From a virus, in IMG/VR virus record IMGVR_UViG_3300009537_000047, positions 1-42,527 of that record: a stretch of DNA of 42,527 nucleotides. One strand, given 5' to 3'. The translations under genes and the position numbers were made by a program. Below, one piece after another: positions 5,934-36,679 of this stretch (the first letter of the stretch is position 1; every line of letters begins with the position of its first letter). The notes beneath the pieces were generated by a model that saw only the letters and a list, made by a program, of their open reading frames with translations, was not told the origin of the DNA and did not search any database.

Positions 5934-6155
5934 TTGAAACGAAAGCCCCTCCCCCAAGTGGGTGATTACATAACTGTATGTTTTGACATATACTCTGAGT
6001 CGTGTATATGGGCAACAGCTAAAATCGAGCAGCGACGGTGGTGGGGGATCTCCTACCGCATCGCAGTGCTCGTCAACGATGAACATATTGAGCTTACAAT
6101 GGGTGAGCTCAAACGATACAAGTGGAGGCACAATGATGAACGAAAGAGACGCTGA
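5934..6155 (+). CDS. Small early protein with probable TTG start (73 aa)
   Basis: An in-frame ATG at 5883 overlaps the -10 box and cannot be on the main transcript. The first start downstream of the promoter with a ribosome site is TTG at 5934, eight bases after AGGAG (5921-5925). This gives a basic protein, KRKPLPQVGDYITV..., with a beta-rich centre (WGISYRIAVLVND) and a KR-rich end. The size and strand pattern are compatible with a small beta-barrel, but no named family is recognised. Its end overlaps the next gene by 20 bases. Confidence 0.6.
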   Translation: MKRKPLPQVGDYITVCFDIYSESCIWATAKIEQRRWWGISYRIAVLVNDEHIELTMGELKRYKWRHNDERKRR

Positions 6156-6387
6156 GGAGTCCCTCGTACGGGTCAACATTGTCCTGCCGAAGGCGCTGGA
6201 CGACCGCTTCCGCGCGCGCTTCAACGACCCACTCTTCAATCGTACAGCGTATGGGGCGCGATCCCGCATCCTTCAGCGCTTGCTTGAGGAGTATCTCAAC
6301 GCCCTCGACGCCGGGACGCGCAAGCTCGATCCACGAATCCTCGGCCTTGCCGGGGAGTTCTCCATTATCGATCCAACGGAGCTGTAA
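6136..6387 (+). CDS. Probable ribbon-helix-helix-type DNA-binding protein (83 aa)
   Basis: Of two adjacent ATGs, 6136 is seven bases from GGAGG (6124-6128) and is preferred. The sequence LVRVNIVLPKALDDRFRARF has the short strand followed by an amphipathic helix of the ribbon-helix-helix (CopG/Arc) fold. After a loop (NRTAYGARS), RILQRLLEEYLNAL forms the second helix. Such proteins dimerise and bind palindromic operators. It is the second gene after the consensus promoter at 5856, so autoregulation is plausible. The inverted repeats at 205-228 and 724-741 are possible targets, by inference. Confidence 0.6.
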   Translation: MNERDAEESLVRVNIVLPKALDDRFRARFNDPLFNRTAYGARSRILQRLLEEYLNALDAGTRKLDPRILGLAGEFSIIDPTEL

Positions 6388-6390
6388 CAC

Positions 6391-6642
6391 ATGACAGACA
6401 CAGTGCAGAAAATCCTCGCCCATGATGAGGTTGAGCGCCTCGCCCACCGCATCAACGAGGCGCGGCGACTCCGTCTCGAGGGCGCCCCTACCCCTGAGAT
6501 CGCCGCCATCGAGCCTACGGCAGAGGAGATGGCAGCGGTGATCCAGTCCCTCCGAGTAGCTCGTGTTGCGAAACCTGCATCCAAGTCTCGCAGCACCAAA
6601 CCAAAGACCGTCTCCGACCTGAACAGCTTACTTGGATTGTAA
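6391..6642 (+). CDS. Small protein ending in LNSLLGL (83 aa), unknown function
   Basis: The start follows GGAG nine bases upstream, with TGTAACAC between. It is helical with an acidic/alanine-rich body (HDEVERLAHRINEARRLRLEG, PTAEEMAAVIQSL), then a basic linker (KPASKSRSTKPK) and the ending TVSDLNSLLGL. The last residues are nearly the same as the N-terminal peptide of the polymerase and of the 3223 product. The basic linker plus hydrophobic tail suggest a flexible docking tail. No named family. Confidence 0.7.
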   Translation: MTDTVQKILAHDEVERLAHRINEARRLRLEGAPTPEIAAIEPTAEEMAAVIQSLRVARVAKPASKSRSTKPKTVSDLNSLLGL

Positions 6643-6643
6643 C

Positions 6644-6946
6644 ATGGCCCACCCAACCTTACCAGAAGCGTATCCACTAGAGTTCTTTGAACTCGGTCGC
6701 GCCGCCACAGCTCACGAGGTCGTGCTCAACTTTCCAACACGAGACGAGGCGTTTCAATTTCAGATGAGATGGGGAGCGTTTAAAAAGGCTCTCCGCGCTT
6801 ACCCAAAAATCGACCCAGACCTCGCCGCCGTGATCCCTTCCATCGCTGCATCGAAGAAGCGTAACGATACTGTCGTCATCATGCGGCAAATCAACTACAA
6901 TGTGGATGTGATTCGAGCAGCCCTTTCCACTCAGCCAACGAGGTAA
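6644..6946 (+). CDS. Conserved-looking small protein (100 aa), unknown function
   Basis: The ATG at 6644 follows the previous stop within TTGTAACATGG; no clear Shine-Dalgarno is present, so coupling is likely. The product has the segment VVLNFPTRDEAFQFQMRWGAFKKALRAYP, a strand followed by a helix rich in aromatic and basic residues that resembles short phage replication-region proteins. The rest (AASKKRNDTVVIMRQ) is basic, and nucleic-acid binding is possible. It directly precedes the nuclease gene. Confidence 0.7.
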   Translation: MAHPTLPEAYPLEFFELGRAATAHEVVLNFPTRDEAFQFQMRWGAFKKALRAYPKIDPDLAAVIPSIAASKKRNDTVVIMRQINYNVDVIRAALSTQPTR

Positions 6947-6951
6947 CACCA

Positions 6952-7974
6952 ATGGCAATGACAGCAACTCCGCGGTTCCCTCCCGCGTTAGACAACACGA
7001 TAGTTGAGCGGTGGCGTAAGTGTCGCCGGCTTTGCTGGTACGAACATGTGCTCGGATGCAGCTCACCCGTTCGCAACGAGCACCTTCACTTTGGAGGATG
7101 CTACGCGGCCGGAGTCGAGACTGCGCGTCGGGCGTTCTATAGTGAGGGGAAATCCCTCGACGCCTCTATCGTGGCAGGCTCCCAGCGCATCTTAGCAGAG
7201 TGGGGGGACTACACTCCCCCGGACAACACCGTCAAGACCCGCGCGAACTGCATCGACGCCTTCGATCGCTATGCGAAGGAGGTGTATCCGTTCGGTATCG
7301 ACGATCTGATACCGTATCGCGTGGCGCCCGACGCGCCCCCGATGATCGAGTTCTCTTTCGCGTTGGAGCTTCCCTTCCACCACCCTGACACCGGCGAGCC
7401 TCTCCACTACGCTGGCCGCGCGGACATGGTAGGGACGTATCGCAGTCAGTGCGACAACCGTCCGTGGGAAGGGAAGACGTTGTGGGCCGTGGACGAGAAG
7501 TCCACTAAGGACATGGGACCGCTGTGGGCGAACCAATGGCGTCTGAGTGGCCAGTTCATCGGCTACGTAAAAGCGTTAAGGGAGTTGGAGAACATCACTG
7601 TCGAGGGCGTTTGCGTCCGCGGTGTATGTCTGTACAAAACACAAGCCCCCAAGTTCCAAGAGTCCTTCGTCCCTATCCCTGAGTGGCGCGTGAACGACTG
7701 GTGGAACAACCTCCTCGGCACCGTCGAAGAGATGATTATGTTCTACCGATACTGCACAGGGCAGGACGTTCTTCCAGGGCGAGATTGGGGCCACGCGTGC
7801 TCGTCGTATGGGGGGTGTTCCTTCCTCGACGTGTGTGAGATCGAGCATCCCATCCCATTCCTCGAAACCGAATATTTCGAGCGACGATGGAACCCCCTGA
7901 CCAGAACGGAGGAGCGCTCCGATGAACTACCTATGGACTATAGCGGGGCTGCGGTTCCTTTCAAGGGAGTATGA
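6952..7974 (+). CDS. PD-(D/E)XK nuclease, Cas4/RecB-like, with putative Fe-S cysteines (340 aa)
   Basis: The start is fixed by CGAGGTAACACC (6939-6950). Catalytic elements are visible: GRAD at about 155-158, VDEKST with D181, E182 and K183, and QxxxY (Q201-Y205), the RecB/Cas4 type motif set. Cysteines at 24 and 28, then 283, 289 and 295, fit the one-plus-three spacing of the 4Fe-4S cluster in Cas4/AddB nucleases. Phage proteins of this kind act as DNA exonucleases in recombination or host DNA breakdown. The neighbours, a Sak4-like ATPase and an SSB-like protein, support recombination-dependent replication. Confidence 0.85.
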   Translation: MAMTATPRFPPALDNTIVERWRKCRRLCWYEHVLGCSSPVRNEHLHFGGCYAAGVETARRAFYSEGKSLDASIVAGSQRILAEWGDYTPPDNTVKTRANCIDAFDRYAKEVYPFGIDDLIPYRVAPDAPPMIEFSFALELPFHHPDTGEPLHYAGRADMVGTYRSQCDNRPWEGKTLWAVDEKSTKDMGPLWANQWRLSGQFIGYVKALRELENITVEGVCVRGVCLYKTQAPKFQESFVPIPEWRVNDWWNNLLGTVEEMIMFYRYCTGQDVLPGRDWGHACSSYGGCSFLDVCEIEHPIPFLETEYFERRWNPLTRTEERSDELPMDYSGAAVPFKGV

Positions 7975-8398
7975 CGACCCTCATGCGTTTCAGTGGACCT
8001 ACAACTTCTGTTGCCAGGAGTGCGGTACGATCTGGTGTACCGCAGCACCTGTTGGCGCGAAGCACATCATCCACTCATGGACGAGAAAGCTGTGCCCACA
8101 ACACCGCGATCTCACGGCAGGGGAGCTTCTCACCCCATTCCTCGGCCTCCCTCTCGCCGCATACCCCTACCCCATTCTCGAATTCACATATTACAGGAGA
8201 CTATCCTATGAACGAACAGGCGACAGCCGCCTCCACACAAACGGCATCAACGCCGTGTGTCTCCCCAATTCCGGGGCCGAAAGTCATGCTCCTCGGAGAG
8301 CCGGGCAGTGGGAAGACTTTTTCCTGCCGTACCTATCTGGAGGCGGGGATCACTCCGTTCTTCCTCTTCACCGATCCGGGGATGGAAGTGGTGAGTGA
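7922..8398 (+). CDS. Zinc-ribbon-like protein with an unusual 190-bp overlap into the ATPase gene
   Basis: ATG at 7922 follows GGAGG (7908-7912) with good spacing and lies inside the end of the nuclease gene. The first 95 residues look genuine: FCCQECGTIWC, then K-LCPQH, a likely zinc site. From about residue 96 the frame runs into the start of the ATPase gene and loses any protein-like pattern, stopping at 8396-8398. Either the gene truly overlaps by 190 bases, or an original stop near 8200 was lost by mutation or a sequencing error. A C-terminal extension of no importance is most likely. Confidence 0.6.
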   Translation: MNYLWTIAGLRFLSREYDDPHAFQWTYNFCCQECGTIWCTAAPVGAKHIIHSWTRKLCPQHRDLTAGELLTPFLGLPLAAYPYPILEFTYYRRLSYERTGDSRLHTNGINAVCLPNSGAESHAPRRAGQWEDFFLPYLSGGGDHSVLPLHRSGDGSGE

Positions 8399-9071
8399 CT
8401 GTGACGAGATACATTGGAAGTACATCGCCCCCACGTCACCGAGCTGGGCGACCTTCATCGACAGCGCGCGGAAGATCAATACCCTCTCCCACGATGCACT
8501 GAGCAAGCTTCCAGACATCAACAAGCAGCAATACAACCAATTCGTTGTGATGCTAGAGACTCTTGCGAACTTCACCTGTGATCACTGCGGCGAGGCGTTC
8601 GGAGCGGTGGATCACTGGAATACAGACCGTGCCCTCGTGATGGATGGGATGAGTGGCATGAGCCAAGTTGCGATGGACCTCGTCGCCGGGAGCAAACCAG
8701 TGAAGTCCCAAGCGAACTGGGGTGTGGCGATGGATAACCTCAACCGCCTCATCATCAAACTCGCCACAGGCCTCAAATGCCATATGACGCTCATTGGACA
8801 CCTTGAGCGAGAGCATAATGAAGTCACCGGCGCGGTGGAGCTGATGGTCAGCACCCTCGGTCGGAAGCTCGCCCCGACGCTCGGGCGTCATTTCTCCGAC
8901 ATCATCCACTGTCGTCGTGCTGGAGACAAGTGGGTGTGGAGCACCGATACCGTCAACGTAGCGACGAAGACGAGGAACATAGCGTTGGGTGGAGACCTTC
9001 CCCCATCCTTCACCTCTCTCATCACTAAGTGGCAGAACGCCGGAGGTAAGATATGTCCGACGACAGTGTAG
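8208..9071 (+). CDS. Sak4-like RecA-fold ATPase, putative recombinase (287 aa)
   Basis: The start is set by CAGGAG (8194-8199), although the frame is open further 5'. Walker A is GEPGSGKT (about 30-37), preceded by PKVMLLG. LVMDGMSGMSQ around 145 is the Walker B-like strand. DHCG (residues about 125-128) is part of a possible inserted zinc site. TLIGHLERE and the following EL..STLGRKLAP fit the sensor strand and the end of the RecA core. Such phage ATPases (Sak4 type) promote single-strand annealing and usually sit next to their own SSB, as here (9532). It also follows an exonuclease gene. Confidence 0.8.
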   Translation: MNEQATAASTQTASTPCVSPIPGPKVMLLGEPGSGKTFSCRTYLEAGITPFFLFTDPGMEVVSDCDEIHWKYIAPTSPSWATFIDSARKINTLSHDALSKLPDINKQQYNQFVVMLETLANFTCDHCGEAFGAVDHWNTDRALVMDGMSGMSQVAMDLVAGSKPVKSQANWGVAMDNLNRLIIKLATGLKCHMTLIGHLEREHNEVTGAVELMVSTLGRKLAPTLGRHFSDIIHCRRAGDKWVWSTDTVNVATKTRNIALGGDLPPSFTSLITKWQNAGGKICPTTV

Positions 9072-9280
9072 TTGCGACCGCCGAAGCTGAATTGAGTGCC
9101 CTATTCTCAGAGGTGAGGAGAGCGGTGTCTGCTCTTAACACTGCTACCCACGCCGCCGTTGAGACCTCCAGGGGTATAATTGGCGACGAGGGGGTGGAAG
9201 ACATCAAACGACTCATCAATAGGGCTACGATACTGTGGCTCACCAAACTCGAGTCAGCAAGAAAGGAGATGACTAAATGA
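9053..9280 (+). CDS. Small helical protein, unknown function (75 aa)
   Basis: The start is six bases after GGAGG (9042-9046) and overlaps the end of the ATPase gene by 19 bases. It is almost entirely helical (EAELSALFSEVRRAVSALN, IKRLINRATILWLTKLES) and probably oligomerises. No motif recognised. Tight overlap on both sides indicates translational coupling with the ATPase and the next zinc protein. Confidence 0.7.
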   Translation: MSDDSVVATAEAELSALFSEVRRAVSALNTATHAAVETSRGIIGDEGVEDIKRLINRATILWLTKLESARKEMTK

Positions 9281-9492
9281 AAGACACTACCTATCGGTGT
9301 GATACCTGCGGGCGCGGCGTGGATATAGACGACATCTACGGGTATTTCTGTGGAAACGTGGGGCTAGAGTTTCGACCGGCCGCACGCACAGCGGCACACA
9401 TCTGCAGGCGGTGCATAAACGACATCGCCTCGTTTGCCAAACAGCCTGATCCACGCCCCCCCATTCCTCTTCCGCCCAGCGACAAGGCGTGA
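9277..9492 (+). CDS. Small zinc-ribbon protein (71 aa)
   Basis: ATGA overlap with the previous stop. CDTCG near the start and CRRC about 35 residues later give a four-cysteine zinc ribbon, with another cysteine (YFCGN) between. The C-terminus is proline-rich (DPRPPIPLPP). It is one of several zinc-knuckle proteins in this arm. Function unknown; DNA or protein binding is likely. Confidence 0.7.
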   Translation: MKDTTYRCDTCGRGVDIDDIYGYFCGNVGLEFRPAARTAAHICRRCINDIASFAKQPDPRPPIPLPPSDKA

Positions 9493-9531
9493 TTGTCGCA
9501 CCCTTAACCAACCAACCATGAGTACCAAACC

Positions 9532-10014
9532 ATGAATGACTCCACGTTCAACCCTGAGACCTTCCTCTCCCAGCAGTTCGACACGGCGCTCGAGACGGAA
9601 TACAAACCCGTCCCGGTAGGTGTGTATCAAGCCGTGCTCGTCAATGACGAAAAGCACGAGATGCAGGCACGCCGCGTCGAGTCGGAGAAGGCCCGCGACG
9701 GTTACTTCACTGCGTTTGAGATCTGGGCGCAGATCGACGCCCCCGGCAACGACCAGGCCGACGGCAAGCACGTTCGCTTCGACACCTTCCTCGACATCTC
9801 GCCTAGCGGCGGCCTCGAGAGTGGTGAGAACAGGAACGTGAAGCTGGGCCAGCTCCGCAACGCTGTCGGGCAGAACCAGCCCGGCGTCGCGTGGGGCTTT
9901 GGGATGCTGGTGGGACAGGTCCTCCAGATCAAGGTGAGTCACCAGGAGGCGAAGGACGGCCGCACGTTTGCGCGGATTGACGCCGTTGCTCCCATAGGCG
10001 CCGCCCTCGCCTAA
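9532..10014 (+). CDS. Single-stranded DNA-binding-like protein (160 aa)
   Basis: The start at 9532 has no clear Shine-Dalgarno; a five-codon frame at 9518 overlaps it. The protein begins NDSTFNPETFLSQQFDTALETEY and continues V..GVYQAVL, EIWAQID, HVRFDTFLDI, a GE.R.VKLGQLRNA helix, and a closing VSHQEAKDGRTFARID strand. This is the strand order of an OB-fold like the phage DUF669/SSB proteins that accompany Sak4 recombinases. Position two genes after the ATPase and before the helicase supports that. The typical acidic SSB tail is absent; it ends GAALA. It could instead be another replication accessory protein. Confidence 0.6.
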   Translation: MNDSTFNPETFLSQQFDTALETEYKPVPVGVYQAVLVNDEKHEMQARRVESEKARDGYFTAFEIWAQIDAPGNDQADGKHVRFDTFLDISPSGGLESGENRNVKLGQLRNAVGQNQPGVAWGFGMLVGQVLQIKVSHQEAKDGRTFARIDAVAPIGAALA

Positions 10015-10052
10015 CACCTTCGTTGAGCGGTAGCACACGTTACCTCCCCCAC

Positions 10053-10087
10053 GCCGGCTGGGGTCTACCGTAGCCGGCACCCTTTTC
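10053..10087 (+). terminator. Possible terminator between the SSB-like and ParB-methyltransferase genes
   Basis: GCCGGCT (10053-10059) and AGCCGGC (10072-10078) pair around a 12-base loop, followed by ACCCTTTTC. The long loop and short T-run make it weak. It may attenuate rather than stop transcription. The intergenic gap 10015-10110 holds nothing else I can support. Confidence 0.45.
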
Positions 10088-10110
10088 ACATCAGCTTTGC
10101 GCATACTCAA

Positions 10111-11433
10111 ATGAAACTTCTTCCCCTTTCTGAACTCGTCATTGACGAGGAGCGCGTTCGTCGCTTCTTCGATAAAGCGAGGTTGGATGAACTTGCAACC
10201 TCCATCACTAACAACGGTCTCCTCCACCCCATCGTCGTGCGCCATAATGAGAAGCTCGAAACGGTGCTGATAGCGGGGGAGCGGCGCTTCAACGCCATGA
10301 GGCTTTTGCATAACCGAGGCACCCCGTTTCGCGTGGTGAACTCTAACGGGTACACTCCAGTCCCTCCTCAACACATCCCTGTCAACTATGTCTCCGACCT
10401 CGATGCCTCTGCGATCCTCGAAGCTGAGATCGAAGAGAACGTCTGTCGGGTGGACGTGTCGTGGCAAGAGCGCATCGAGGCAGAGGCGAAGTTGCACACT
10501 CTTCGCGTCAAGCAGAACCCCACCCATACGTTAAAGGACACAGCGAGGGAGATTTACGGCGACGACGTGCCCTCGGGTGCCGCGAGTGAGCTCAAACGAG
10601 ATCTGTTGATCCACGAACTCCGCGACAACCCGGTGTTCAAGGGAGCCAAGACCCTCGACGACGCGAGGAAGCGCCTCGCTCACCACCGAAAGGAGCTCTT
10701 CCTCGCGAGCGTCGGAGACATCCTCGCGCAGACGGTGGACCCCAGCGAGCACGTCGTGTTCGAGAATAAGGAGGGGTGCGCCGCCATGACGACGTTGGGG
10801 CTCAGCGGAACGGAGGTGGATGTGTTCTGCTTCGATCCACCGTATGGTATCGCCGCTGACACCTTCCGCAACTTCAACAGCCTCGCAAAGCACACCTACA
10901 GCGACGAGGAACAAGAAGCGAAGAGGCTGACAGAACGCTTCCTCTCCGCCATAGAGGTGTGTCGCGCAAAGGAGGCGCACATCTACATCTTCTGTGACAT
11001 CAACGCGTTCTATGGCTGGCTTGCTCCACTAGTCGAGAGCTTCGACTGGAAGGTATGGCCGCGACCGCTCATCTGGGCGAAGCGCCAACACGCCGGAGCC
11101 CCCGACTACGACGCCGGCCCTGCGCGGCAGTACGAGGCAATCCTCTTTGCGACGAAGGGCGGGAGGAAGGTTGCGCGAGTGGGTGGCGATGTGCTCACCC
11201 ATGCAGCTGTACGAGACAAACTTCACTCCGCGCAAAAACCCTCGTCGTTGCTGACGGACATGCTGTCACGCGTCTGTAGTGTGGGGGACATCATCTGTGA
11301 TCCCTGCGCGGGAAGTGGCTCAATCGTCCTCGCGGCGAAAGAGTTGGGCCTTCAATGCTTCGCGTATGAGATCGACGAAGAGACATACAAAAAAGCCCTT
11401 GTAAACATCAACGTTGGAGATTCATTAACATGA
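10111..11433 (+). CDS. ParB-like domain fused to beta-class DNA methyltransferase (440 aa)
   Basis: Residues 1-115 match the ParB/Srx-type N-domain (LPLSEL..D, LDELATSI..NGLLHPIVVR, GERRFNAMRLL). Residues about 200-440 are a DNA methyltransferase: DPPYG at about 242-246 (motif IV), then DPCAGSGS at about 397-404 (motif I), the order of the beta class. DPPY favours N6-adenine. A conserved KPSSLLTDML precedes motif I. A linker of helices with EIEENVCRVDVSW joins the two. Such ParB-methyltransferase fusions occur on phages and mobile elements. Protection from restriction or marking of phage DNA is the likely role; target sequence unknown. The stop overlaps the helicase start. Confidence 0.85.
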   Translation: MKLLPLSELVIDEERVRRFFDKARLDELATSITNNGLLHPIVVRHNEKLETVLIAGERRFNAMRLLHNRGTPFRVVNSNGYTPVPPQHIPVNYVSDLDASAILEAEIEENVCRVDVSWQERIEAEAKLHTLRVKQNPTHTLKDTAREIYGDDVPSGAASELKRDLLIHELRDNPVFKGAKTLDDARKRLAHHRKELFLASVGDILAQTVDPSEHVVFENKEGCAAMTTLGLSGTEVDVFCFDPPYGIAADTFRNFNSLAKHTYSDEEQEAKRLTERFLSAIEVCRAKEAHIYIFCDINAFYGWLAPLVESFDWKVWPRPLIWAKRQHAGAPDYDAGPARQYEAILFATKGGRKVARVGGDVLTHAAVRDKLHSAQKPSSLLTDMLSRVCSVGDIICDPCAGSGSIVLAAKELGLQCFAYEIDEETYKKALVNINVGDSLT

Positions 11434-12623
11434 TTGAACTGACCCCCTTGCAGCAGCAAGGAATCGACTTCATCAACGACGACCCCTCCCCAATCAAGCG
11501 TATTGCTGGGGTGGCGGGGAGCGGAAAGACGTTCGTCCTTGCGCAGGTGGCGACGGAGGAGAACGATATTGTCACCACTCCGACGAACAAGGCGGCGCAG
11601 GTGCTGCGGGATCGCGGCATCGCTGCCAGGACGGTGTACTCCTTCATGTACGAGACACGTGTGGGTGTGGAGCGAGACAAGGATGGCAAACCGATCGAGG
11701 ATGCGTTCGGACGGCGGAAGGAGAAACTCGAGTTCAAGCATCGGCTCGACTTCGAGGACACCGATCCGGAGGACTACGCCGACATTCGCCTCTTCATCGA
11801 CGAGAGTTCGATGGTAGGTGGGAAGCTGTTCGCTGATGTGAAACGCTTCGTGAACGAGTGTGGTACTCATGTAGTGATGTTTGGAGACCCCTTTCAACTC
11901 CCTCCAGTCAAGGACGAGGATGTGTTTAAGGCGGCTGCTCCCAACGTATTCTTCGATGAGGTACATCGCACCGCCGCTGACAACCCCGTGCTCGCGTTCG
12001 CGTCACATATCCGCACTCACTCTAACATCTACGGATGGGAGGGGTTGCGTAATGAATCTCCATTTCCCATCGTACGTAAGACAGCCGCCAACGCAGGGAG
12101 CCTCATCTTCCGTCCGGAGACGCAAGTGGTTTGCTGGAAGAACGTCACGCGTAGGAGGATTAATGAGGGGTTTCGTAAGATGCTGGGACGAGAGGGACTC
12201 TATCCCGTCGAAGGAGATAAGATCATCTTCACCTCACGAGATCGCAAGGGTAAAGTGTTTAACGGGCTGTTTGCGGTGGTGGAGGGTGTGGACGTCGGCC
12301 CAACGGAACTGCGTCTCGATGTAGAGACGGAGAATGGAGTTCGCGTTAGCAACATCGAGGTTTCCAAGCACCCCTTCCTCGACTATACGGACTGGGGGCC
12401 AACGAAGCGTAGGGCGGAGGCGGGGATGTTCAAGTCCCACCAGACCACCTGTGACTTCGCCTACGCTATTACAGCCCATAAGTCACAGGGGAGTGAGTGG
12501 CCTGATGTCACAGTCATCGATGAGATCTCACACATCTCTGCGATAGGCCTCGATGAGCGGCGTCGATGGGTCTACACCGCGATCACCCGGACGCGAGAGA
12601 ACCTTTCAATTGTAAGAGGGTAG
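11430..12623 (+). CDS. Superfamily 1B DNA helicase, Dda/RecD-like (397 aa)
   Basis: Starts LTPLQQQGIDFI (Q-motif like), then Walker A GVAGSGKT (27-34), motif Ia TTPTNKAAQ, Walker B LFIDESSM (about 126-133), motif III FGDPFQLPPV, motif IV with the DEVHR segment, motif V AYAITAHKSQGSEW and motif VI VYTAITRTRENL. All helicase motifs are intact. Dda-type 5'-3' helicases help phage origin opening and fork movement. It lies between the methyltransferase (4-base overlap) and the polymerase (4-base gap), in a replication cluster. Confidence 0.92.
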   Translation: MIELTPLQQQGIDFINDDPSPIKRIAGVAGSGKTFVLAQVATEENDIVTTPTNKAAQVLRDRGIAARTVYSFMYETRVGVERDKDGKPIEDAFGRRKEKLEFKHRLDFEDTDPEDYADIRLFIDESSMVGGKLFADVKRFVNECGTHVVMFGDPFQLPPVKDEDVFKAAAPNVFFDEVHRTAADNPVLAFASHIRTHSNIYGWEGLRNESPFPIVRKTAANAGSLIFRPETQVVCWKNVTRRRINEGFRKMLGREGLYPVEGDKIIFTSRDRKGKVFNGLFAVVEGVDVGPTELRLDVETENGVRVSNIEVSKHPFLDYTDWGPTKRRAEAGMFKSHQTTCDFAYAITAHKSQGSEWPDVTVIDEISHISAIGLDERRRWVYTAITRTRENLSIVRG

Positions 12624-12627
12624 AACA

Positions 12628-15054
12628 ATGCCAGCCCTTGACAATCTCCTCGGCCTTACGACCGAGGTCCCCCTCGGCGCTGCCCTTGGCCCTCAGCCCG
12701 CCCGCGTCCTCATCGTGGGCGAGGCGTGGGGGCAGAACGAGGAACGCGAGGGGAAGCCGTTTGTTGGCGCCTCTGGGCAGGAACTCACAAACATGCTCCA
12801 TGAGGCGAACATCCTCCGCTCCGACTGCCGCATAACCAACGTGGTTAATGCGCGACCGGAGCGTAACGATATCGAAAACTGGTTCCACTCATCTAAAACA
12901 AAGGCGAAGGCGGCGGGGGAGGACACGCCTCTCTTTAGGCGCTACCCCCACGCTATCGTTCGCCGTGGCATCGAGGCCCTCAAACATGAGATCGAAACAA
13001 CCCACCCTTCCCTCATTATCGCATTTGGCAACACTGCTCTTTGGGCCCTCACAGGAGAGGTCGGAATCACCAAGTGGCGAGGGTCGTACCTCCACGCAAC
13101 AGGTCCGGTCGACGCTCCCTCCGTCCCAGTCCTCCCCACCTACCACCCCGCCGCCGTCCTTCGTCAGTGGTCTTGGCGATACATCGCAGTCCACGATATC
13201 AGATACGCCGCGAGTATCCTCGGTGGGACGGTGGTTGTACCTGAGTGGGACTTCACCTTATCCCCGAGCTTCTCAACCGCCACCCTATATCTCAACAACG
13301 TTTTGCGCAGCCTGGAAAAAGGCCCAACGCGAGTGGCTGCAGACGTGGAGACCCGGCGGGGGCAGATTTCGTGTATTGGCCTTGGGCTGTCTGACCGACG
13401 GGCAATCTGTATCCCATTTCATTCAAATAAAACCACCGATGGAAACTACTGGACTAACCCCGCACACGAAACTGCCCTCGTCCTACAGCTTAGAAGAATT
13501 CTAACCCACTCCAGCGCTGAGGTGATTTTCCAAAACGGCCTCTACGACATTCAGTACATCCTCGACAATTGGAAGTTCCTCCCCCACATCACCCATGATA
13601 CGATGGTGCTCCAGCACGCTTGTTGGCCGGGGTTGCCAAAGGGACTTGATTTCCTTGCATCGATGTACTGCTCGTATCGTCGGTACTGGAAAGATGATGG
13701 CAAGGAGTGGAGTGACAAGTATGAGAGCGAGGAGGATAATTGGCGATACAACTGTCTTGATTGTGTGCGGACATGGGAGATCGTTGACCCCCTTCTCTCC
13801 ACGCTGAAGTACCTCAACGTTGAGCACGTCTACGCGCAGCTTTGCTCTGAGTTCGAACCTGTCCTCTTCATGATGATTAATGGCGTGAGTATTGATGCTG
13901 CGCGCCGAGGGCAGATGACCCTTGACCTGATAGAGATGAACAATGTTCTACAATCTTGGTTTGACACCGCTGTTGAATCTGGTTTCAACCCGCGCTCAGC
14001 TCACCCCAACGGAGACATGCAACGACTCTTCTACCATGAACTCCGCATTAAACCAGTCACTCACCGCAAGACAGGCCGCGCAACACTTGCCAAGGGAGCT
14101 CTCGACACAGTCCTCGATCGCCAACCCCTTTTACATCCCCTCATCCTGCGAATTAAGGCATATCGCACAGCAGGGACATTCAAGGCAAACTTCATCGACG
14201 CCCCCCTCGATCCAGATGGGCGAATTCGCTGCTCATATAACCCCTGCGGAACAGAGACAGATCGATTCTCTAGCAGCGCAAACGCGTTTGGACGAGGGAC
14301 GAATCTCGAAAACATCCCCCGCCCACCAGAAACCGGCGAACGCGCACCGACACCGATCGTCACGCTGCCAAACGTTCGTAGTATTTTCATTCCTGACCCT
14401 GGTTATATCATTGCTGATTTTGATCTCGACCGCGCAGACGCACACATTGTCGCGTGGGAATCTGGCGATGAGTCCCTCAAGCGCATGTTCTTGGCAGGAG
14501 TGGATATCCACGAGGAGAACGCTAAGGTTATCGGGACAGGCCGTCAACTCGCTAAGTCATTCGTGCATGGAACTAACTACGGCGGTGGGGAGAAAACCGT
14601 AGCGGGGCACTGTGGTATCTCCGTCGCCCAAGCGCGCAACGGTCAACGTCTCTGGTTCAACGCGCACCCGCGTATTAAGGAGTGGCACGAGCGCGTCGAA
14701 CGCCAACTCATGCAGAACCGTACAATCACAACTGTGTTTGGGAGAAAGCGTATGTATTTTGATCGCATCAGTGCGGAAATTCGCAACCAAGCCCTCGCGT
14801 ATATAGGACAATCCCCTGTCGCGTGGGTAATCAATCGGGGCCTCCGCCGCGTGTACGATGAGCTCCCTTGGTGCCAACTCCTCCTCCAAAACCACGACTC
14901 CATTGTGGTTCAGTTCCCCAACGATAACGTAGCAGAACGCATCAACGACATTACCCAACGCCTCCGCGTCTCTATCCCTTACCCCGACCCCCTCATCATC
15001 CCGGTTGGTTGTAAGTACTCTACGCGGAGTTGGGGGGAGTTACGTCCCGCGTAA
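12628..15054 (+). CDS. Family A DNA polymerase with N-terminal uracil-DNA-glycosylase-like domain (808 aa)
   Basis: Three modules are visible. Residues 24-200 resemble a family 4/5 uracil-DNA glycosylase: VLIVGEAWGQNEEREGKPFVGASG, TNVVNARPERND, and YHPAAVLRQ. Residues about 230-390 are a 3'-5' exonuclease: DVE, NGLYD, and YNCLDC. Residues about 420-808 are a Pol I-type polymerase. Motif A is DLDRADAH with catalytic D599. Motif B is R639-x3-K643-x3-H647-G..Y651, so histidine sits where E. coli Pol I has F762. Motif C is H756-D757-S758. There is no 5' nuclease domain. The first residues carry LDNLLGL, shared with small early proteins. UDG-polymerase fusions are known in some phages. Confidence 0.9.
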   Translation: MPALDNLLGLTTEVPLGAALGPQPARVLIVGEAWGQNEEREGKPFVGASGQELTNMLHEANILRSDCRITNVVNARPERNDIENWFHSSKTKAKAAGEDTPLFRRYPHAIVRRGIEALKHEIETTHPSLIIAFGNTALWALTGEVGITKWRGSYLHATGPVDAPSVPVLPTYHPAAVLRQWSWRYIAVHDIRYAASILGGTVVVPEWDFTLSPSFSTATLYLNNVLRSLEKGPTRVAADVETRRGQISCIGLGLSDRRAICIPFHSNKTTDGNYWTNPAHETALVLQLRRILTHSSAEVIFQNGLYDIQYILDNWKFLPHITHDTMVLQHACWPGLPKGLDFLASMYCSYRRYWKDDGKEWSDKYESEEDNWRYNCLDCVRTWEIVDPLLSTLKYLNVEHVYAQLCSEFEPVLFMMINGVSIDAARRGQMTLDLIEMNNVLQSWFDTAVESGFNPRSAHPNGDMQRLFYHELRIKPVTHRKTGRATLAKGALDTVLDRQPLLHPLILRIKAYRTAGTFKANFIDAPLDPDGRIRCSYNPCGTETDRFSSSANAFGRGTNLENIPRPPETGERAPTPIVTLPNVRSIFIPDPGYIIADFDLDRADAHIVAWESGDESLKRMFLAGVDIHEENAKVIGTGRQLAKSFVHGTNYGGGEKTVAGHCGISVAQARNGQRLWFNAHPRIKEWHERVERQLMQNRTITTVFGRKRMYFDRISAEIRNQALAYIGQSPVAWVINRGLRRVYDELPWCQLLLQNHDSIVVQFPNDNVAERINDITQRLRVSIPYPDPLIIPVGCKYSTRSWGELRPA

Positions 15055-30552: not shown

Positions 30553-31728
30553 TTACCCTAACATTAAAGTTAAAAGTATGGAGCCGTTGTCCGACCCAAA
30601 CGTCACACCGTCCGCATCAAAGGTAGACACAGAACTACCCGTTCCGTTATCCGTGGAGATAGCGGTGCTTGAGTAGTTTGAATCAGTGTCAGTCGTTGAC
30701 ACGTTATCAATGTCTATGTACTCACGGCTTGCTTGCTCTATAGACCCACTCGCGTCGCTTGCCATCCCGATACAACGATATGATGAGGTAGCATCAGTAG
30801 CCCTTGTACCAACGGCTACTCTCGACCCGAGAACAAGCAGCGCTCTAGGCGTAAACCCCGCACCTGTGAAAGATAGGCTTGTTGTCAGGTCTTGTGCCTT
30901 CACATAACTTGAAACGCCACCTAACAGCAAAAGCGACAACACACCACTTTCCCCGGCGTTTCGGGTTGTAATCGTGCAGCCGTCGCTGTTCCACGATGTA
31001 ATCTCATACCCATGACCAGCACCATCATCTTTGGTCGGATCAGCTGAAACGTACAACTGACTGTGAAGGAGTTCGCTTTGCGTCGTCCCTTTGCCGTCGT
31101 TGTAGCGAGCGTTATGACTTCCTTGATTCAAAGCAGAATCACAAACTCCTATATTTAGGTTAGCGTGGACCGCCGACGTATCATTAAAACCCAACCCTAA
31201 CCCGCTCAGTACAATTGCCGCTGATGGTTGGAACGATAATCCAGTGATGGACACAGTCCCATTAGCAGTAGCGCTCGTTGTAATCTGAGCTACTGCCGCG
31301 TCTATTTCAGCGAACAACAAAGCCGTGACAATTTCACTACCGGCACTGACCAAAGTGAGGTCAAGCTTATTAACACCAAAAGAGGAGAACGCAGCATCAA
31401 ACACATCCAAGTCGCTGTCAGAGTTAACGTCTAACACTCGATTAGTCCGCCCAATGTGGAACGTATCAGAAGTACCAATAGCATCCTCACTATTATTGCC
31501 TACTGAGCGATGTGTGGTTCCGTCTGTAAAACCGATAGACCAGTCTGCCTCAACCGACGATCCAGTTGTCGTCTGGTGATTGGCAAGAAGTATAGCCGCA
31601 ACTGGAGTAGCACCACCAACATCGGTGTCGGTAAGCGAGACAGTCGATCCGGTCCCTATGCTACCATTAAAAAACCCAAACGGGCTACCGGAAACCGCAA
31701 ACCTGGATGGACGCAAGAGGAAGCCCAT
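30553..31728 (-). CDS. Beta-rich virion protein with three internal repeats, putative fibre component (391 aa)
   Basis: The protein is nearly all beta-strand, Ser/Thr/Gly/Asp-rich. It contains three units of about 110-130 residues beginning near 28, 155 and 280. Each has a strand with P.A..L(L/V)L near the start, a central IG.. segment, an FD/ D-G-V- or DGCT-like step, and a hydrophobic end (VTALLFA, LSLLLLG, LLTLMLG). Such tandem beta domains fit a tail-fibre or a decoration protein that attaches to glycans. No catalytic residue is evident. The DNA of this segment is visibly less GC-rich than the flanking head genes, suggesting separate origin. Confidence 0.7.
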   Translation of the reverse strand: MGFLLRPSRFAVSGSPFGFFNGSIGTGSTVSLTDTDVGGATPVAAILLANHQTTTGSSVEADWSIGFTDGTTHRSVGNNSEDAIGTSDTFHIGRTNRVLDVNSDSDLDVFDAAFSSFGVNKLDLTLVSAGSEIVTALLFAEIDAAVAQITTSATANGTVSITGLSFQPSAAIVLSGLGLGFNDTSAVHANLNIGVCDSALNQGSHNARYNDGKGTTQSELLHSQLYVSADPTKDDGAGHGYEITSWNSDGCTITTRNAGESGVLSLLLLGGVSSYVKAQDLTTSLSFTGAGFTPRALLVLGSRVAVGTRATDATSSYRCIGMASDASGSIEQASREYIDIDNVSTTDTDSNYSSTAISTDNGTGSSVSTFDADGVTFGSDNGSILLTLMLG

Positions 31729-32393
31729 TACTGATGCCCAATAAGGTAAATCTTCCCGCCGGCTTCAGTAGCTGCTCCAGACACCGCATCTACATCGACG
31801 GTTATCTCAGCGTCATCGGCCAACGCAGAATCGCTTATCACTGCTGCCGTCGCCGCCGTGGTGGAGGTTTTTTCGGTGGCGTCGATGGTTAGCTTCGTAG
31901 ACAAGATCGTGGTTCCTCCCTCATTAATGTCAAGTGTCGTGGTGCCTGACGTTCCACCAGCGACTGACAGGCTTGCACGAACTCCAGTGAGTGTGAATGC
32001 GTAGGGCATTCTGAACGTGACAACGCCAGTCGCAACTGTGATTGCAGTGGTTTCGTCTCCGATCGCTACCGCGAGCACCTCTGTGTGATAGTGGTCCTCG
32101 TCGGTGAGTTTCTTCCACACCGCTGCAGCAGCAGCGTTACTGGAGCATCGAAACACTTCACCATCAGTCGTGTTAATGTAGAGAGAGCCGATGAGGTATC
32201 CATCACCGCTATCCTCGTTGACGGTAGGGTCGCTCGCGCCCCACCCACACACGGGTCCAGTAACCCCCTTAAACGTGTTCTGGAGAGTCGTCTTGATCCC
32301 GCGAATGTGGTCATCACCCTCGCTCTTGACATCAGTTGCAACAGGGTTAGACGTGTTGAGGTCGTCAATATATTCAAATGTTTCAAGTGCCAT
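31728..32393 (-). CDS. Tail-fibre-like protein with phage-typical N-terminal anchor (221 aa)
   Basis: It opens ETFEYIDDLNTSNPVATDVKSEGDDHIRGIKTTLQNTF. The motif (S)EGDDHIRGIKTTLQNTF near 23-40 is the hallmark of many phage tail fibres at their virion-proximal end. Next is GWGASDPTVNEDSGDGYLIGSLYINT, a T-rich beta part with A.GDETTAI, and the ending GGKIYLIGHQ, again common in marine podovirus fibres. There is no depolymerase domain at this length. The start is preceded by GTAAC with the ATG directly after, one base past the previous stop. Confidence 0.8.
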   Translation of the reverse strand: MALETFEYIDDLNTSNPVATDVKSEGDDHIRGIKTTLQNTFKGVTGPVCGWGASDPTVNEDSGDGYLIGSLYINTTDGEVFRCSSNAAAAAVWKKLTDEDHYHTEVLAVAIGDETTAITVATGVVTFRMPYAFTLTGVRASLSVAGGTSGTTTLDINEGGTTILSTKLTIDATEKTSTTAATAAVISDSALADDAEITVDVDAVSGAATEAGGKIYLIGHQ

Positions 32394-32394
32394 G

Positions 32395-32889
32395 TTACAC
32401 GCTCGCCGCTGTCAGGGTCACGGTGATGTTCAAAATGTCGCCGGAGATCAACGCCCGCGAGGCGCCAAAATCCACCGCCCCGTAAAGTATTCCACTTGTA
32501 CCACCTTTGGTACTGTCGGTGGAAAGAAGGCCCCCCGCTACGGTGATGCTGCCGCTAATGTTGAATACAGCCTTGGATGCGGAGTTGTCAACGCTCTGAC
32601 TCGCAACAGTTCCAAGCGTAAGGGTTTGCCGTACCGCCTCACTGTAAGATGTGAGTTCCGCCCAGCCCGCATGTGACGTCATTGTGTCACCGGCAGCAGC
32701 GGACCCCACCCCTTTCAGCCCAACGTAATGGGCGGCGGTGTAGGTGGACCCCTTGAAGTATTTATCGAGAACATCGTCCAGCCCCACGTTCACAACTATG
32801 TTAGGAATCTCCTCTCTCCATTTGAGATTCCTGAGCGAATCGTAAGCCTCAAACAGCCATATCGACCGCATCCCAATTAATGCTTTCAT
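32395..32889 (-). CDS. Structural protein, fibre-associated or neck-type (164 aa)
   Basis: A helix-poor protein with an opening MKALIGMRSIWLFEAYDSLRNLKWREEIPNIVVNVGLDD, then YVGLKG, a T-rich turn, GWAELTSYSEAVRQTLTLG and a set of strands ending LNITVTLTAASV. This layout, YxxAxR.T...., occurs in small beta proteins next to fibre genes in podoviruses. Its ATG overlaps the stop of the upstream gene. Confidence 0.65.
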   Translation of the reverse strand: MKALIGMRSIWLFEAYDSLRNLKWREEIPNIVVNVGLDDVLDKYFKGSTYTAAHYVGLKGVGSAAAGDTMTSHAGWAELTSYSEAVRQTLTLGTVASQSVDNSASKAVFNISGSITVAGGLLSTDSTKGGTSGILYGAVDFGASRALISGDILNITVTLTAASV

Positions 32890-33299
32890 AACGGATCACC
32901 TTCTGTCCACGTCGCAGTGGAGGAAACGGATGTTGTCCAGGTTGTGGTTGTCACACCACTCTCACCCCACGTCACGCCTATTCCAGTGACACCATCCCAC
33001 GGAGGCTTCATCGCAAGGTCGAGTGAGAGTGCGAGTTGCATGACGTTCTCAACATTGAGTGTATGACTTACGCTGACATCAGCCGATAGCCCAAAGGCCA
33101 ACGCTCCATCAACGGATATGTTAGCGACGGGTGCAGGAAATCCCGCTCCCAGCGCAAACGAGAGACTTGTGTTGTAAGAGCCTCCACCAACATTCGACAC
33201 TCCCGCGCCGAGACCAAACGCAAGCGCCTCAAAAGCGTCATTCCATTGTGAGGTATCATCGGCCCATGCCTGCGAATCGCTTGCCCAATCATCAGCCAT
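32886..33299 (-). CDS. Beta-rich repetitive structural protein (137 aa)
   Basis: The N-terminus is Asp/Trp-rich (ADDWASDSQAWADDTSQWNDAF). The middle has three near-repeats of the type LAFGLGAGVS / LSFALGAGFP / LAFGLSADVS, each about 30 residues apart. The end is Thr/Trp-rich (GVTWGESGVTTTTWTT). These features suggest a small beta-solenoid or decoration protein. Its start overlaps the end of the glycosyltransferase gene by eight bases. Confidence 0.65.
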   Translation of the reverse strand: MADDWASDSQAWADDTSQWNDAFEALAFGLGAGVSNVGGGSYNTSLSFALGAGFPAPVANISVDGALAFGLSADVSVSHTLNVENVMQLALSLDLAMKPPWDGVTGIGVTWGESGVTTTTWTTSVSSTATWTEGDPL

Positions 33300-33987
33300 T
33301 TACTACCGCCGCCCGAACGCGCTCTACCTCCTCAGGCATGAGGATGTGCTCATGCTGGAACATCAGCTGTCCAACGTGTCCAATTTGTTGGGAGAGTTTG
33401 TGGTCCACAAATATGGGAACATTACGCTTAGAGATGTTATCGCAGAACGCCCAATCCTCCCCAACGTACTCCTCCCTCCCCTCATCCCATCGAATACCAA
33501 ACCAAGGCTGCGGCATGGCGTTGAAGATAGAGAGTTTGATCAACATCACCCCAGTGCCCACGCGCCAGACGCGCTGAAGCCCTGCCCGCCCCGTAGAGTA
33601 TACTGGATCGCCACCTACGACCTCTTCGCTAAGCGTCCGCGCGGTAGGGGTAGAGGGAATTTTCTTCGTGGGACAGTTTGCCGCAACAACAAGTTGGTTG
33701 TGCGAGATAAGTTGGTGGAGCGTATCTCGCGGAAACACCATGTCAGAGTCGATGAAAAGCAGATAATCTGCTTTAAGCTTCCTCGCAGTCAACACAACAT
33801 TCTCACGTAGCTGTGGTAAAATGCTCCCCTTCACATTAACGACCTGCACCTGCTGTGTGCGCACGTCGAATCCAAGCTGCACCTGCGCGGCGTAGCTCAT
33901 CATTACAGCGAGGGACATGCCAAAGTCAGCGGACCAATCCGCTCCCGACGGCACTCCCACAACCACATGGAGATCGCGCTTCTTCAT
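33292..33987 (-). CDS. GT-A-type glycosyltransferase (231 aa)
   Basis: The Rossmann-like start (LHVVVGVPSG) and the hydrophobic strand YLLFIDSDMVFPRDTL, with D80-S-D82 as the DxD metal-binding motif, identify a GT-A fold of the GT2-like group. Downstream, VGTGVMLIK, then EYVGEDWAFCDNISKRNVPIFVDHKLSQQIGHVG give the conserved ED acceptor and H regions. It is the second of two glycosyltransferase-like genes behind the capsid gene. The likely target is a virion or host-surface glycan. It shares a one-base overlap with the 33987-34283 gene. Confidence 0.85.
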   Translation of the reverse strand: MKKRDLHVVVGVPSGADWSADFGMSLAVMMSYAAQVQLGFDVRTQQVQVVNVKGSILPQLRENVVLTARKLKADYLLFIDSDMVFPRDTLHQLISHNQLVVAANCPTKKIPSTPTARTLSEEVVGGDPVYSTGRAGLQRVWRVGTGVMLIKLSIFNAMPQPWFGIRWDEGREEYVGEDWAFCDNISKRNVPIFVDHKLSQQIGHVGQLMFQHEHILMPEEVERVRAAVVNG

Positions 33988-34283
33988 CAGTCCTCCGCCA
34001 GTTTGGAGAAATCCTGGTCGCCATCGTTGATGATGATGTCAGGGTCTTCAATGCGAATGCTGGAACGCTCGTACTCCGGCGTGGAGCTCTTCTTGTTCTT
34101 TCGCTCTACCATCTCCGTTCCCACCACCTTACCGGAGACTGTAATCTCCACCATCGCGTCGATCTCTATCCCTTTCAGCTGATCCACTGGAACGTCAAGA
34201 CGTATCGACGCTGGGCGGGTCTTTCTGGGTCTGGAGGGTGCAACACTATCCCCGTAGTCAGGTTCTTTAGGCAGCTTGCTCAT
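33987..34283 (-). CDS. Small charged protein between two glycosyltransferase genes (98 aa)
   Basis: It starts with a basic, proline-rich stretch (LPKEPDYGDSVAPSRPRKTRP), then a compact beta segment (IRLDVPVDQLKGIEIDAMVEITVSGKVVG) and an acidic tail (IRIEDPDIIINDGDQDFSKLAED). The overlaps on both sides tie it to the glycosyltransferases. It could be a decoration or adaptor protein. Not recognised. Confidence 0.65.
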   Translation of the reverse strand: MSKLPKEPDYGDSVAPSRPRKTRPASIRLDVPVDQLKGIEIDAMVEITVSGKVVGTEMVERKNKKSSTPEYERSSIRIEDPDIIINDGDQDFSKLAED

Positions 34284-34959
34284 TCAAAATAGCCTCATGG
34301 ATTAGCTTAACGTCATCGCGAAGTCCTGTGCCCCCATTCCATTCTAGAAAAACATCACTGTCTTTCGGCAAGGCATCTCGCGCAAATTGATAAATCTCAT
34401 CATGCTCCCCCTTTTCCACTAGCGGGTGCATGTGTTCAAACTCTACGTCAGGGCAATACTGCAACAACCCCCTCACGTTCATCCCCAACACGTACCACAC
34501 CAGATCTACGCCGCTGTGAACGATCCCTGGGAGCGCCCAATACCCCACGGTCCGGACCAGCTTCCCCCCACAAACGAAATGAGTCGGAAGCCCCTCATTT
34601 TGTACCCCATCAGCTGGCCATGAGACACACCAGTCTCCTGCAGCCCCTGCTAGCCGTTCCCACCATTTCGTCCTGAACACCACATCGTCCCCGAGAAACC
34701 CATAGCATTGCGCGGTGGGGAACCCCTTAACCAGCCACCTCATCGCATCCGTCGCGGTGAAGCGGAAGTTCTCCACACACAGCGTCCATGTTGGGGGCAG
34801 TTCGATCGCGAGGTAGCTGTCGATGAACGGGTCAGCGTAATACACCAACACGCTAACTGACGCCCCCTCCTCCCCCACGTCGCTATAGCTTTCCACCAGC
34901 CGCGCAAGGTTGTGGGGCCGCTGAAGTGTTGGCAAAATCCACTGAGGGTCGTCGCTCAT
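34267..34959 (-). CDS. Glycosyltransferase-like protein (230 aa)
   Basis: Start set at the ATG that overlaps the sulfotransferase stop (ATGA); an ATG four codons upstream is possible. The N-terminus WILPTLQRPHNLARLVESY is the strand-loop-helix start of GT2-like enzymes. CYGFLGDDVVF carries a GDD in the place of the DxD motif. Next come FVCGGKLVRTVGYWALPGIVHSGVDLVWY and a C-terminal EFEHMHP, resembling the acceptor and catalytic region. Its location between the sulfotransferase-like gene and a second glycosyltransferase supports a joint carbohydrate pathway. Substrate unknown. Confidence 0.75.
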   Translation of the reverse strand: MSDDPQWILPTLQRPHNLARLVESYSDVGEEGASVSVLVYYADPFIDSYLAIELPPTWTLCVENFRFTATDAMRWLVKGFPTAQCYGFLGDDVVFRTKWWERLAGAAGDWCVSWPADGVQNEGLPTHFVCGGKLVRTVGYWALPGIVHSGVDLVWYVLGMNVRGLLQYCPDVEFEHMHPLVEKGEHDEIYQFARDALPKDSDVFLEWNGGTGLRDDVKLIHEAILNEQAA

Positions 34960-35450
34960 ATCTCGTACCATTTTAATTCTTTACGCTCCTGCGGGCCTTT
35001 CCATAGCGGGTGGCCGCAGAGCGCTTCATACGGAAACTCCATGTAATGGTGTAGTGTCCTTTTAATACTATCCCAAAATCTATATTTAATGACGGAGACT
35101 GGCAACGATGCTGCCCCTCCAAACTTCATCCGTTCCATAGACTCACACTGCAGGTCGATCCGCTTCTCCGACGCGAGGATATCCTCCACCGCCCGCAGCG
35201 GCACAACCACAAGGTCGCTCGAGGCAGCAAGTTCCGCAATCATGTGAAGCAGCCCTGGACATTGTATAACCTGCCATGCGTGTTGATTGCGGCACCCTCG
35301 CAATTGCTCAAGATTATCCACTCCGAACCTGCGCTCATCCACACATTCTCGCCCAATGTCAGCTGCGATGGCATTCGCAAGTATACGAGTGCCGGAGCGC
35401 TGTGGCCCCGACACCCATATATCATCGTACTTGGAGAGTACTTCAAACAT
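34956..35450 (-). CDS. Sulfotransferase-like P-loop protein (164 aa)
   Basis: SGPQRSGTRILANAI (about 14-28) matches the PAPS-binding 5'-phosphosulfate loop (PxRSGT), and LVVVPLRAVEDILASEKR (about 80-97) resembles the 3'-phosphate motif (R..x-D..xxS). The length of 164 is shorter than typical sulfotransferases (about 250), so the acceptor domain may be reduced. If active it would move sulfate from PAPS onto a glycan or a protein. It lies directly after the major capsid gene, before two glycosyltransferases. A P-loop kinase is the alternative, but GxxxxGK(S/T) is not present. Confidence 0.7.
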   Translation of the reverse strand: MFEVLSKYDDIWVSGPQRSGTRILANAIAADIGRECVDERRFGVDNLEQLRGCRNQHAWQVIQCPGLLHMIAELAASSDLVVVPLRAVEDILASEKRIDLQCESMERMKFGGAASLPVSVIKYRFWDSIKRTLHHYMEFPYEALCGHPLWKGPQERKELKWYEI

Positions 35451-35455
35451 CTCTA

Positions 35456-36679
35456 TTACGGGTTGGTGAAGTTCCCCAGGTACCCCAAGGTCAGACCGCC
35501 GTAGCGAACCTCGAGGCCGGACTCAGTGAGCCATTGGCCCTTTCGTCGATCCTCGTCATTCGCTTGGATGTTATCCTTGAACGCGGTCTTGCGCAGCGGC
35601 CGGTCAATCATCGCTGTTGGATCAATGATGAAGGCCGAGTTCGCATAGGTGCCGTGGCGGTTCATTAGCGGGTGGGTGCGTATGAACAGCCGCCCCTGCG
35701 GAAGAACATACTCCCGTAGATTCATGCCATACAGTCGTACCACCTCCCCGAACTCGATGTTGCCAGCGGATTTCACCACCTGGTTCCAGGCGTTCGCAGC
35801 CCCATTGCCCATGAACACGATACGCTCATCGCCCGCCGCAGTGTCGAAGTCGAACACCTTGTAGATGGCGTTGAGGATCGTGTTCACGGTCGGCGTAGTC
35901 GTGAAGATAGTCACGTTCTGGGTAGAGATGAAACTCCGCAGCCCACCCATGAAACGCAACGGCTTGCCGTTCGCACCTGTGGACTCGTTCTTCGCCCCCC
36001 ACATGTATGCCATCTCCAGACTTGCCGCATGGTCGAACATCTTTCGCTTCTTGTCGTTCGCCAGCGGATCACCGGTGCGGAACTTGGTCTTCAGCGTGGT
36101 GTTCGTAATGTCATACACCGTCTTGAAGATTTGGCAGTAGTTGAAGTACTTGGTCGGGTTGCGGCTCGCAGCCTCCGGCGCCCCTGTACCTTCCGCGAAC
36201 GCATTACCGATCTTGGTGAAATACACATCATCGGCAACGGTAGCAGCAGTGGTACCAGCCTGCCCACGTTTCACCACGAAAGAGGTGGAAGAGGTCACAC
36301 TAGACACCATTACAATCTCATTCGCGTAGGTGGTGGTTTGTGCGGATTCGACCTGGAGCAGATCACCGGCCACGAGGTTGTCCGCCGTGCCCCAGACGAG
36401 ATGCGGCGACGTAGCGCTTGGGTTGGCGCTGTCCACGGTAATCGTGGTGGAGGTGGTGGCGACGAGGCCGTTGAGCTGTAGACGGATGATGTCGTTGGGC
36501 TCGTCCCACCAGGCGAATTCCGGGTCGGTTGTGCCCTCGCTGCGCATCTTCGCCATCAGCGCGGTCAACGGCGCGGAGCCGTTAGGGTTTCGGAACAGAA
36601 TGGTCTCGCGAAAGTCTTTCGGGCGCTCATCGGTTCCGAAATCTCCAGTTCCGCGGAGGCCAGCAACAATGGTAGTCAT
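35456..36679 (-). CDS. Major capsid protein, SU10-like (407 aa)
   Basis: The start of MCPs of the SU10/DUF5309 type is visible: LRGTGDFGTDERPKDFRETILFRNPNGSAPLTALMAKM and then the FAWWDEPND segment. A beta-rich inserted domain spans about 65-155. The core has FNYCQIFKTVYDITNT, a helix with MFDHAASLEMAYMWGAKNE, then an FMGGL.SF segment and the C-terminal VRYGGLTLGYLGNFTNP. The length of 407 is normal. It follows the scaffold and precedes the carbohydrate genes. HK97-fold capsids of this group form T=7-like or prolate shells. Confidence 0.88.
   Translation of the reverse strand: MTTIVAGLRGTGDFGTDERPKDFRETILFRNPNGSAPLTALMAKMRSEGTTDPEFAWWDEPNDIIRLQLNGLVATTSTTITVDSANPSATSPHLVWGTADNLVAGDLLQVESAQTTTYANEIVMVSSVTSSTSFVVKRGQAGTTAATVADDVYFTKIGNAFAEGTGAPEAASRNPTKYFNYCQIFKTVYDITNTTLKTKFRTGDPLANDKKRKMFDHAASLEMAYMWGAKNESTGANGKPLRFMGGLRSFISTQNVTIFTTTPTVNTILNAIYKVFDFDTAAGDERIVFMGNGAANAWNQVVKSAGNIEFGEVVRLYGMNLREYVLPQGRLFIRTHPLMNRHGTYANSAFIIDPTAMIDRPLRKTAFKDNIQANDEDRRKGQWLTESGLEVRYGGLTLGYLGNFTNP

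Follow-up and report, generated by a model that had tools for sequence, protein, structure and literature searches.

A glycosyltransferase gene pair and a putative sulfotransferase gene behind the major capsid gene of a phage genome: a candidate virion glycosylation module with an added sulfation step

Phage virion glycosylation has so far been described for a few mycobacteriophages. According to two articles (PMC12363180 and PMC12619734, citing Freeman et al. 2023), mycobacteriophage glycosyltransferases act on capsid and tail-tube proteins, and phage-encoded glycosyltransferases of Che8 (gp110), Corndog (gp38) and Myrna are proposed to modify capsid or other virion proteins. PAPS-type sulfotransferases of the Sulfotransfer_3 type are encoded by OM43 phages and Synechococcus phage S-SRM01, and the authors regard the function of sulfotransferases in phages as unclear (PMC10580990). 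The locus described here resembles the former in its phage-encoded glycosyltransferases, likewise proposed for virion proteins, and the latter in its putative PAPS-type sulfotransferase. It lies in the metagenomic IMG/VR virus record IMGVR_UViG_3300009537_000047, whose 42,527 bp, the whole stretch that was analysed, are called the window below. The explanation favoured here, with modest confidence, is a late virion glycosylation module consisting of two glycosyltransferases, GTa and GTb, with a sulfation step added by a third protein, ST; the virion glycosylation half of this explanation is well supported. The likelihoods given for this and the competing readings are judgements, and the readings overlap.

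The structural genes of the window are on the minus strand, where a scaffold gene is followed by the major capsid protein (MCP) gene and four further genes:

MCP, 35456..36679, minus strand: major capsid protein of the SU10_MCP type, first of the block (Pfam PF17236, E=1.4e-37; phrog_1328, major head protein)
ST, 34956..35450, minus strand: putative divergent sulfotransferase, 164 aa (family alignment, sub-threshold Sulfotransfer_3 similarity, P-loop fold model)
GTb, 34267..34971, minus strand: predicted GT-A glycosyltransferase, 234 aa, or 230 aa from the ATG at 34959 (phrog_14945, AlphaFold2, Foldseek)
P98, 33987..34283, minus strand: small MCP-neighbour protein, 98 aa, with an acidic C-terminus (profile matches in 22 loci, alignment, MCP-centred survey)
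GTa, 33292..33987, minus strand: predicted GT-A glycosyltransferase, 231 aa (sub-threshold Anp1 similarity, phrog_1574, invariant columns, 109-sequence profile)

The MCP gene stops with TAA at 35456 and ST starts at 35450, 5 nt on; every junction after the ST start consists of overlapping stop and start codons. The end of ST is overlapped by the start of GTb, for which a second ATG at 34959 makes an ATGA stop/start overlap; the end of GTb and the start of P98 overlap by 17 nt, P98 and GTa have one base in common (TGATG at 33989-33985), and GTa overlaps the next downstream gene by 8 nt. The original prediction of a capsid-adjacent block of overlapping genes was thus right in both coordinates and order. 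Elsewhere in the window, on the plus strand, are a family A DNA polymerase with an N-terminal uracil-DNA glycosylase domain (12628-15054) and a ParB-N domain fused to an N6/N4 DNA methylase (10111-11433).

By its predicted fold, GTb is a GT-A glycosyltransferase. Its AlphaFold2 model has a pLDDT of 92.5, and Foldseek returned 343 PDB matches at E<=0.001 (E down to 2e-8), the best 50 of which are all glycosyltransferases, headed by the fucosyltransferase WrtF and including GalNAc-T, TarP and AvpGT. The protein matches the glycosyltransferase family phrog_14945 (E=3.4e-25), and two motifs are conserved, the DxD-like metal motif FLGDD and an ExH near the C-terminus. A seed scan with GTb alone found nothing, and its relatives were obtained from an alignment of phage homologues. 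GTa is likewise a GT-A glycosyltransferase, judged by its motifs and a weak Anp1/GT2 similarity. It carries DSD (D80, D82), GEDWxFC, D195 and H204, and the invariant columns of the family alignment are D80, D82, E177, D178, D195 and H204. GTa matches phrog_1574 (E=1e-19), while its Pfam matches, Anp1 (E=3e-4) and Glycos_transf_2 (E=0.02), are both below cut-off. A comparison of the GTb profile with the GTa profile, the latter built over 109 sequences, detected no homology (hhalign probability 1.8%), so that the two represent separate families. The partner glycosyltransferase in Streptomyces phages was considered as a GTa homologue and rejected on comparison.

The linkage of GTa to the capsid gene recurs well beyond the window. 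Of the fetched loci, 49 (36 distinct) contain both MCP and GTa. As this set was partly chosen by GTa, the survey was repeated from MCP. Sixty-three loci had 3 kb or more of sequence downstream of MCP, and in 34 of them GTa was found there, mostly at a distance of 1.2 kb or less. In many relatives GTa is directly behind MCP with nothing in between; in about half of the MCP relatives it is absent nearby, and the module is therefore optional. The pair GTa and GTb also recurs. One relative has the gene order MCP–GTa–GTb–P98 (locus L277), and among the GTb relatives that have sequence upstream of the gene, the closest (L161-L163) show GTa directly before GTb. Further, in L179, L182, L189 and L209 an unrelated HK97-type MCP (phrog_10) is followed by GTa and then GTb, and in L035 and its kin a GTa domain and a GTb-like domain form one ORF, which in L035 comes right after MCP. 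The original expectation that the genes act on or in the virion is strengthened by this linkage, above all by the MCP–GTa–GTb order beside unrelated capsids. Two other arrangements were observed in the survey. In L179 an NDP-sugar epimerase gene (6176-7165) comes right after MCP–GTa–GTb of this HK97-type phage, and tandem pairs of GTa paralogues occur in L062, L063, L066, L069, L072, L073, L076, L077, L080, L082 and L083, phages with no SU10-type MCP in the fetched stretch.

The rest of the proposed cassette fared unevenly. Of the predicted co-occurrence of all four genes, the GTa/GTb part is borne out by the loci just listed, but ST stands beside none of these pairs. ST was found in no close relative, either in the MCP-seeded survey or in a separate search run without a positive control, and among the loci surveyed it adjoins MCP in the window only. 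As ST is found in no close relative, its tie to the GTa/GTb pair consists of one genome plus looser ST–glycosyltransferase associations. The 98-aa protein is present where it was predicted but is not specific to the cassette, as many relatives conserve it beside MCP. Its profile matches in 22 loci, and it occurs beside MCP with or without ST, GTb or GTa; P98 thus belongs to the capsid region, outside the sugar module, and is probably a structural protein. The cargo between MCP and GTa varies among relatives and is mostly unclassifiable, with one GDSL-lipase-like match. In the window ST and GTb occupy the gap between MCP and P98–GTa, which fits the pattern of an optional insert in this slot.

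Phage glycosyltransferases are also capable of hypermodifying DNA (Pyle 2024, cited in PMC12619734), and the weak match of GTb to the DNA-methyltransferase family phrog_2675 (E=6.5e-6) could be taken to mean that GTa and GTb glycosylate modified bases of the phage DNA and so evade restriction. However, the genes lie in the late structural operon, away from the replication genes, both follow MCP in unrelated phages, and no base-hypermodification gene was found among ten early-region proteins scanned. We also know of no place for a sulfotransferase in a DNA base glycosylation pathway, and modification of DNA is considered highly improbable.

ST is very probably a PAPS-dependent sulfotransferase, although a very divergent one. 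Alone, the protein found no match in Pfam, PHROGs, NCBIfam or PDB, in phage/plasmid tblastn or in a seed scan of viral contigs. Its family was opened only by a P-loop pattern scan of viral contigs with the seed VSGPQRSGT, which returned 20 stretches, including 14 loci with true ST homologues (E 3e-31 to 1e-10); an alignment-based scan extended the family to 28 viral and three cellular loci. The loop SGPQRSGT (residues 14-21) corresponds to a PAPS-type 5'-phosphosulfate loop and lacks the Walker A lysine. It is invariant across the family, but it is also the search seed. R86 and S94, in contrast, lie outside the seed and are invariant in all 21 distinct family sequences. An Arg-x7-Ser spacing after a beta strand is the 3'-phosphate motif of sulfotransferases, and R86-x7-S94 has this form; a C-terminal RKELKW completes the motifs noted in ST. 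Sulfotransfer_3 is matched by seven of 11 family members, with a best E of 7.7e-5 that is under the Pfam cut-off (the top score, 23.5 bits in L113, falls short of the required 27), and Sulfotransfer_1 by one; the Sulfotransfer matches inspected are all sub-threshold, and ST of the window itself has no Sulfotransfer_1/2/3 match above cut-off.

Structure prediction of the 164-aa protein gave a P-loop fold (AlphaFold2, pLDDT 86) without singling out sulfotransferases. Foldseek placed shikimate kinase and other P-loop kinases first (best E=2e-3, TM ~0.5), and sulfotransferases (SULT7A1, Teg12 and viral enzymes) came up in both fold searches with E values of ~0.01-0.1, never below 0.001. The order of these matches is what speaks for ST being a small P-loop nucleotide or sugar kinase-like enzyme instead. 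This alternative is nevertheless improbable in view of the loop without a Walker A lysine, the R86-x7-S94 pair that played no part in finding the family, the sub-threshold Sulfotransfer_3 and Sulfotransfer_1 similarities and the recurrence of sulfotransferases in both fold searches. Further, a second, Pfam-recognised sulfotransferase (Sulfotransfer_2, above cut-off) adjoins the ST homologue in L127. The GTb fold, the GTa motifs and the ST motifs together agree with the original assignment of two glycosyltransferases and a sulfotransferase-like P-loop protein.

The genomic company of the ST family indicates what the putative sulfotransferase may act on. On six viral contigs (L126, L127, L129, L130, L135 and L137) ST homologues lie at most two genes from glycosyltransferases: GT2 in L129, L130 and L137, and a TOD1/MUCI70-type protein and GT4 in L126. 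L127, L130 and L135 share a radical-SAM/B12–GT2 protein, and the first two of these also have a rhamnosyltransferase-like domain. Some homologues lack such company and have replication-type or unclassified neighbours (L140, L149) or an adenosine deaminase (L134). In two bacterial loci, from Bacteroidota-type genomes, the ST domain forms the N-terminus of proteins that also contain WbsX, GT4 and GT2 domains:

L154 (Flavilitoribacter nigricans), 5950-11067: ST-WbsX-GT4-GT2 fusion, 1,706 aa
L156 (Bacteroidetes MAG), 5953-12489: ST-WbsX-GT4-GT2 fusion, >2,100 aa

Both the neighbourhoods and the fusions indicate glycans as the substrate. They also raise the question of whose glycan is modified, as the domains fused in the bacterial proteins are of O-antigen/EPS type, the L156 fusion is, by sequence reading, just downstream of an apparent ABC exporter pair, and GT2 genes neighbour ST in phages. 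Late in infection the enzymes could thus act on the host surface glycan (LPS, O-antigen or capsule), so that a sulfated and glycosylated receptor blocks superinfection or the re-adsorption of progeny to debris. Against this, GTa is tied to the capsid gene in many phages, including some with unrelated capsids. Moreover, no transmembrane segments are predicted in ST, GTb or GTa, and no flippase, polymerase or Gtr-type membrane-anchored gene was found among the window genes examined, which cover part of the window. Modification of the host surface is therefore regarded as unlikely, albeit less so than a kinase-like ST.

Three distant phages combine an SU10-type capsid with ST and glycosyltransferase genes (L127, L129 and L135). 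In L129 and L135 the ST/glycosyltransferase cassette comes shortly before the terminase gene, at the head of the late operon and co-directional with portal and MCP, and in L300 a GTb gene occupies this place. Between cassette and terminase are genes for proteins of 809-833 aa with an apparent N-terminal signal peptide (L129 8598-11072; L135 9329-11755), and L127 encodes a similar-sized protein in the same position after ST (9751-12249). The L129 protein has a tail-fibre-like C-terminus. An acceptor other than the capsid, namely a tail fibre or another downstream adhesin, would be in keeping with this arrangement, and in the window the genes downstream of GTa (32886-33299 to 30553-31728) resemble those for tail or surface proteins, with the ORF at 31728-32393 matching the tail protein family phrog_6465. 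As GTa comes immediately after MCP in many relatives and stands beside it in phages with differing tail modules, this acceptor has a small chance of being the right one, similar to that of the host surface glycan; it is compatible with the virion glycosylation module favoured here.

A possible attachment site on the capsid protein was explored. The MCP of the window ends in GYLGNFTNP (35456-35510), which contains a conserved Asn. Nearly all GTa-bearing MCPs end in ...[YW]x[GSA]N[FVM]..., and the Asn is present in only about half of the GTa-less relatives. The association of GTa with the C-terminal Asn has a Fisher p of ~1e-4 overall, but it is confounded by phylogeny (p of 0.48 and 0.11 within the two MCP clades), and the motif parser misread at least one sequence (L002). 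Owing to the non-significance within clades and the parser misreads, the association is exploratory only. A tentative proposal, somewhat less probable than the module as such, is that the capsid receives a sulfated glycan made by the phage, with this conserved Asn near the MCP C-terminus as a possible site.

Since glycosyltransferases follow the capsid gene in many other phages, the phage of the window probably puts sugar on its own particle, and it may, unusually, add sulfate to that sugar. In the favoured scheme, in which the virion as acceptor, the sulfation of the glycan and the benefit are inferred, the late operon would produce the capsid protein and the glycan enzymes at once. Using host nucleotide-sugars, GTa and GTb would attach one or two sugars to a virion protein; the most likely acceptor is the capsid protein or a different head protein of this operon. 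ST would then move sulfate from host PAPS to that sugar. The result would be a negatively charged glycan coat on the particle, which may benefit its stability, shielding or attachment to surfaces.

If true, this would be a tailed-phage particle with a phage-encoded sulfated sugar coat, and sulfated, charged particles would alter sticking to surfaces, hosts and immune molecules. The survey also suggests that SU10-type podovirus-like phages commonly have a glycosyltransferase gene beside the capsid gene, and the MCP–GTa–GTb module recurs in phages with an unrelated capsid. Phage sulfotransferases would further gain a testable role, namely sulfating the glycan made by neighbouring phage glycosyltransferases.

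Among known genomes, Microcystis phage Mel-JY34 (PP438425) has homologues of scaffold, MCP, GTa and P98 in a row, as in the window, but it lacks ST and GTb, and its GTa is ahead of P98. Compared to the mycobacteriophage systems, the window has a capsid of a different lineage and an added putative sulfotransferase. The phage Sulfotransfer_3 enzymes (PMC10580990) differ in that the ST family of the window is more divergent, below the Pfam cut-off and often beside glycosyltransferases, and in that ST of the window sits directly behind MCP. Finally, the bacterial multidomain glycosyltransferases of L154 and L156 share the ST domain at their N-terminus. Whereas those proteins are very large fusions of cellular glycan synthesis, the phage ST is a stand-alone protein of 164 aa.
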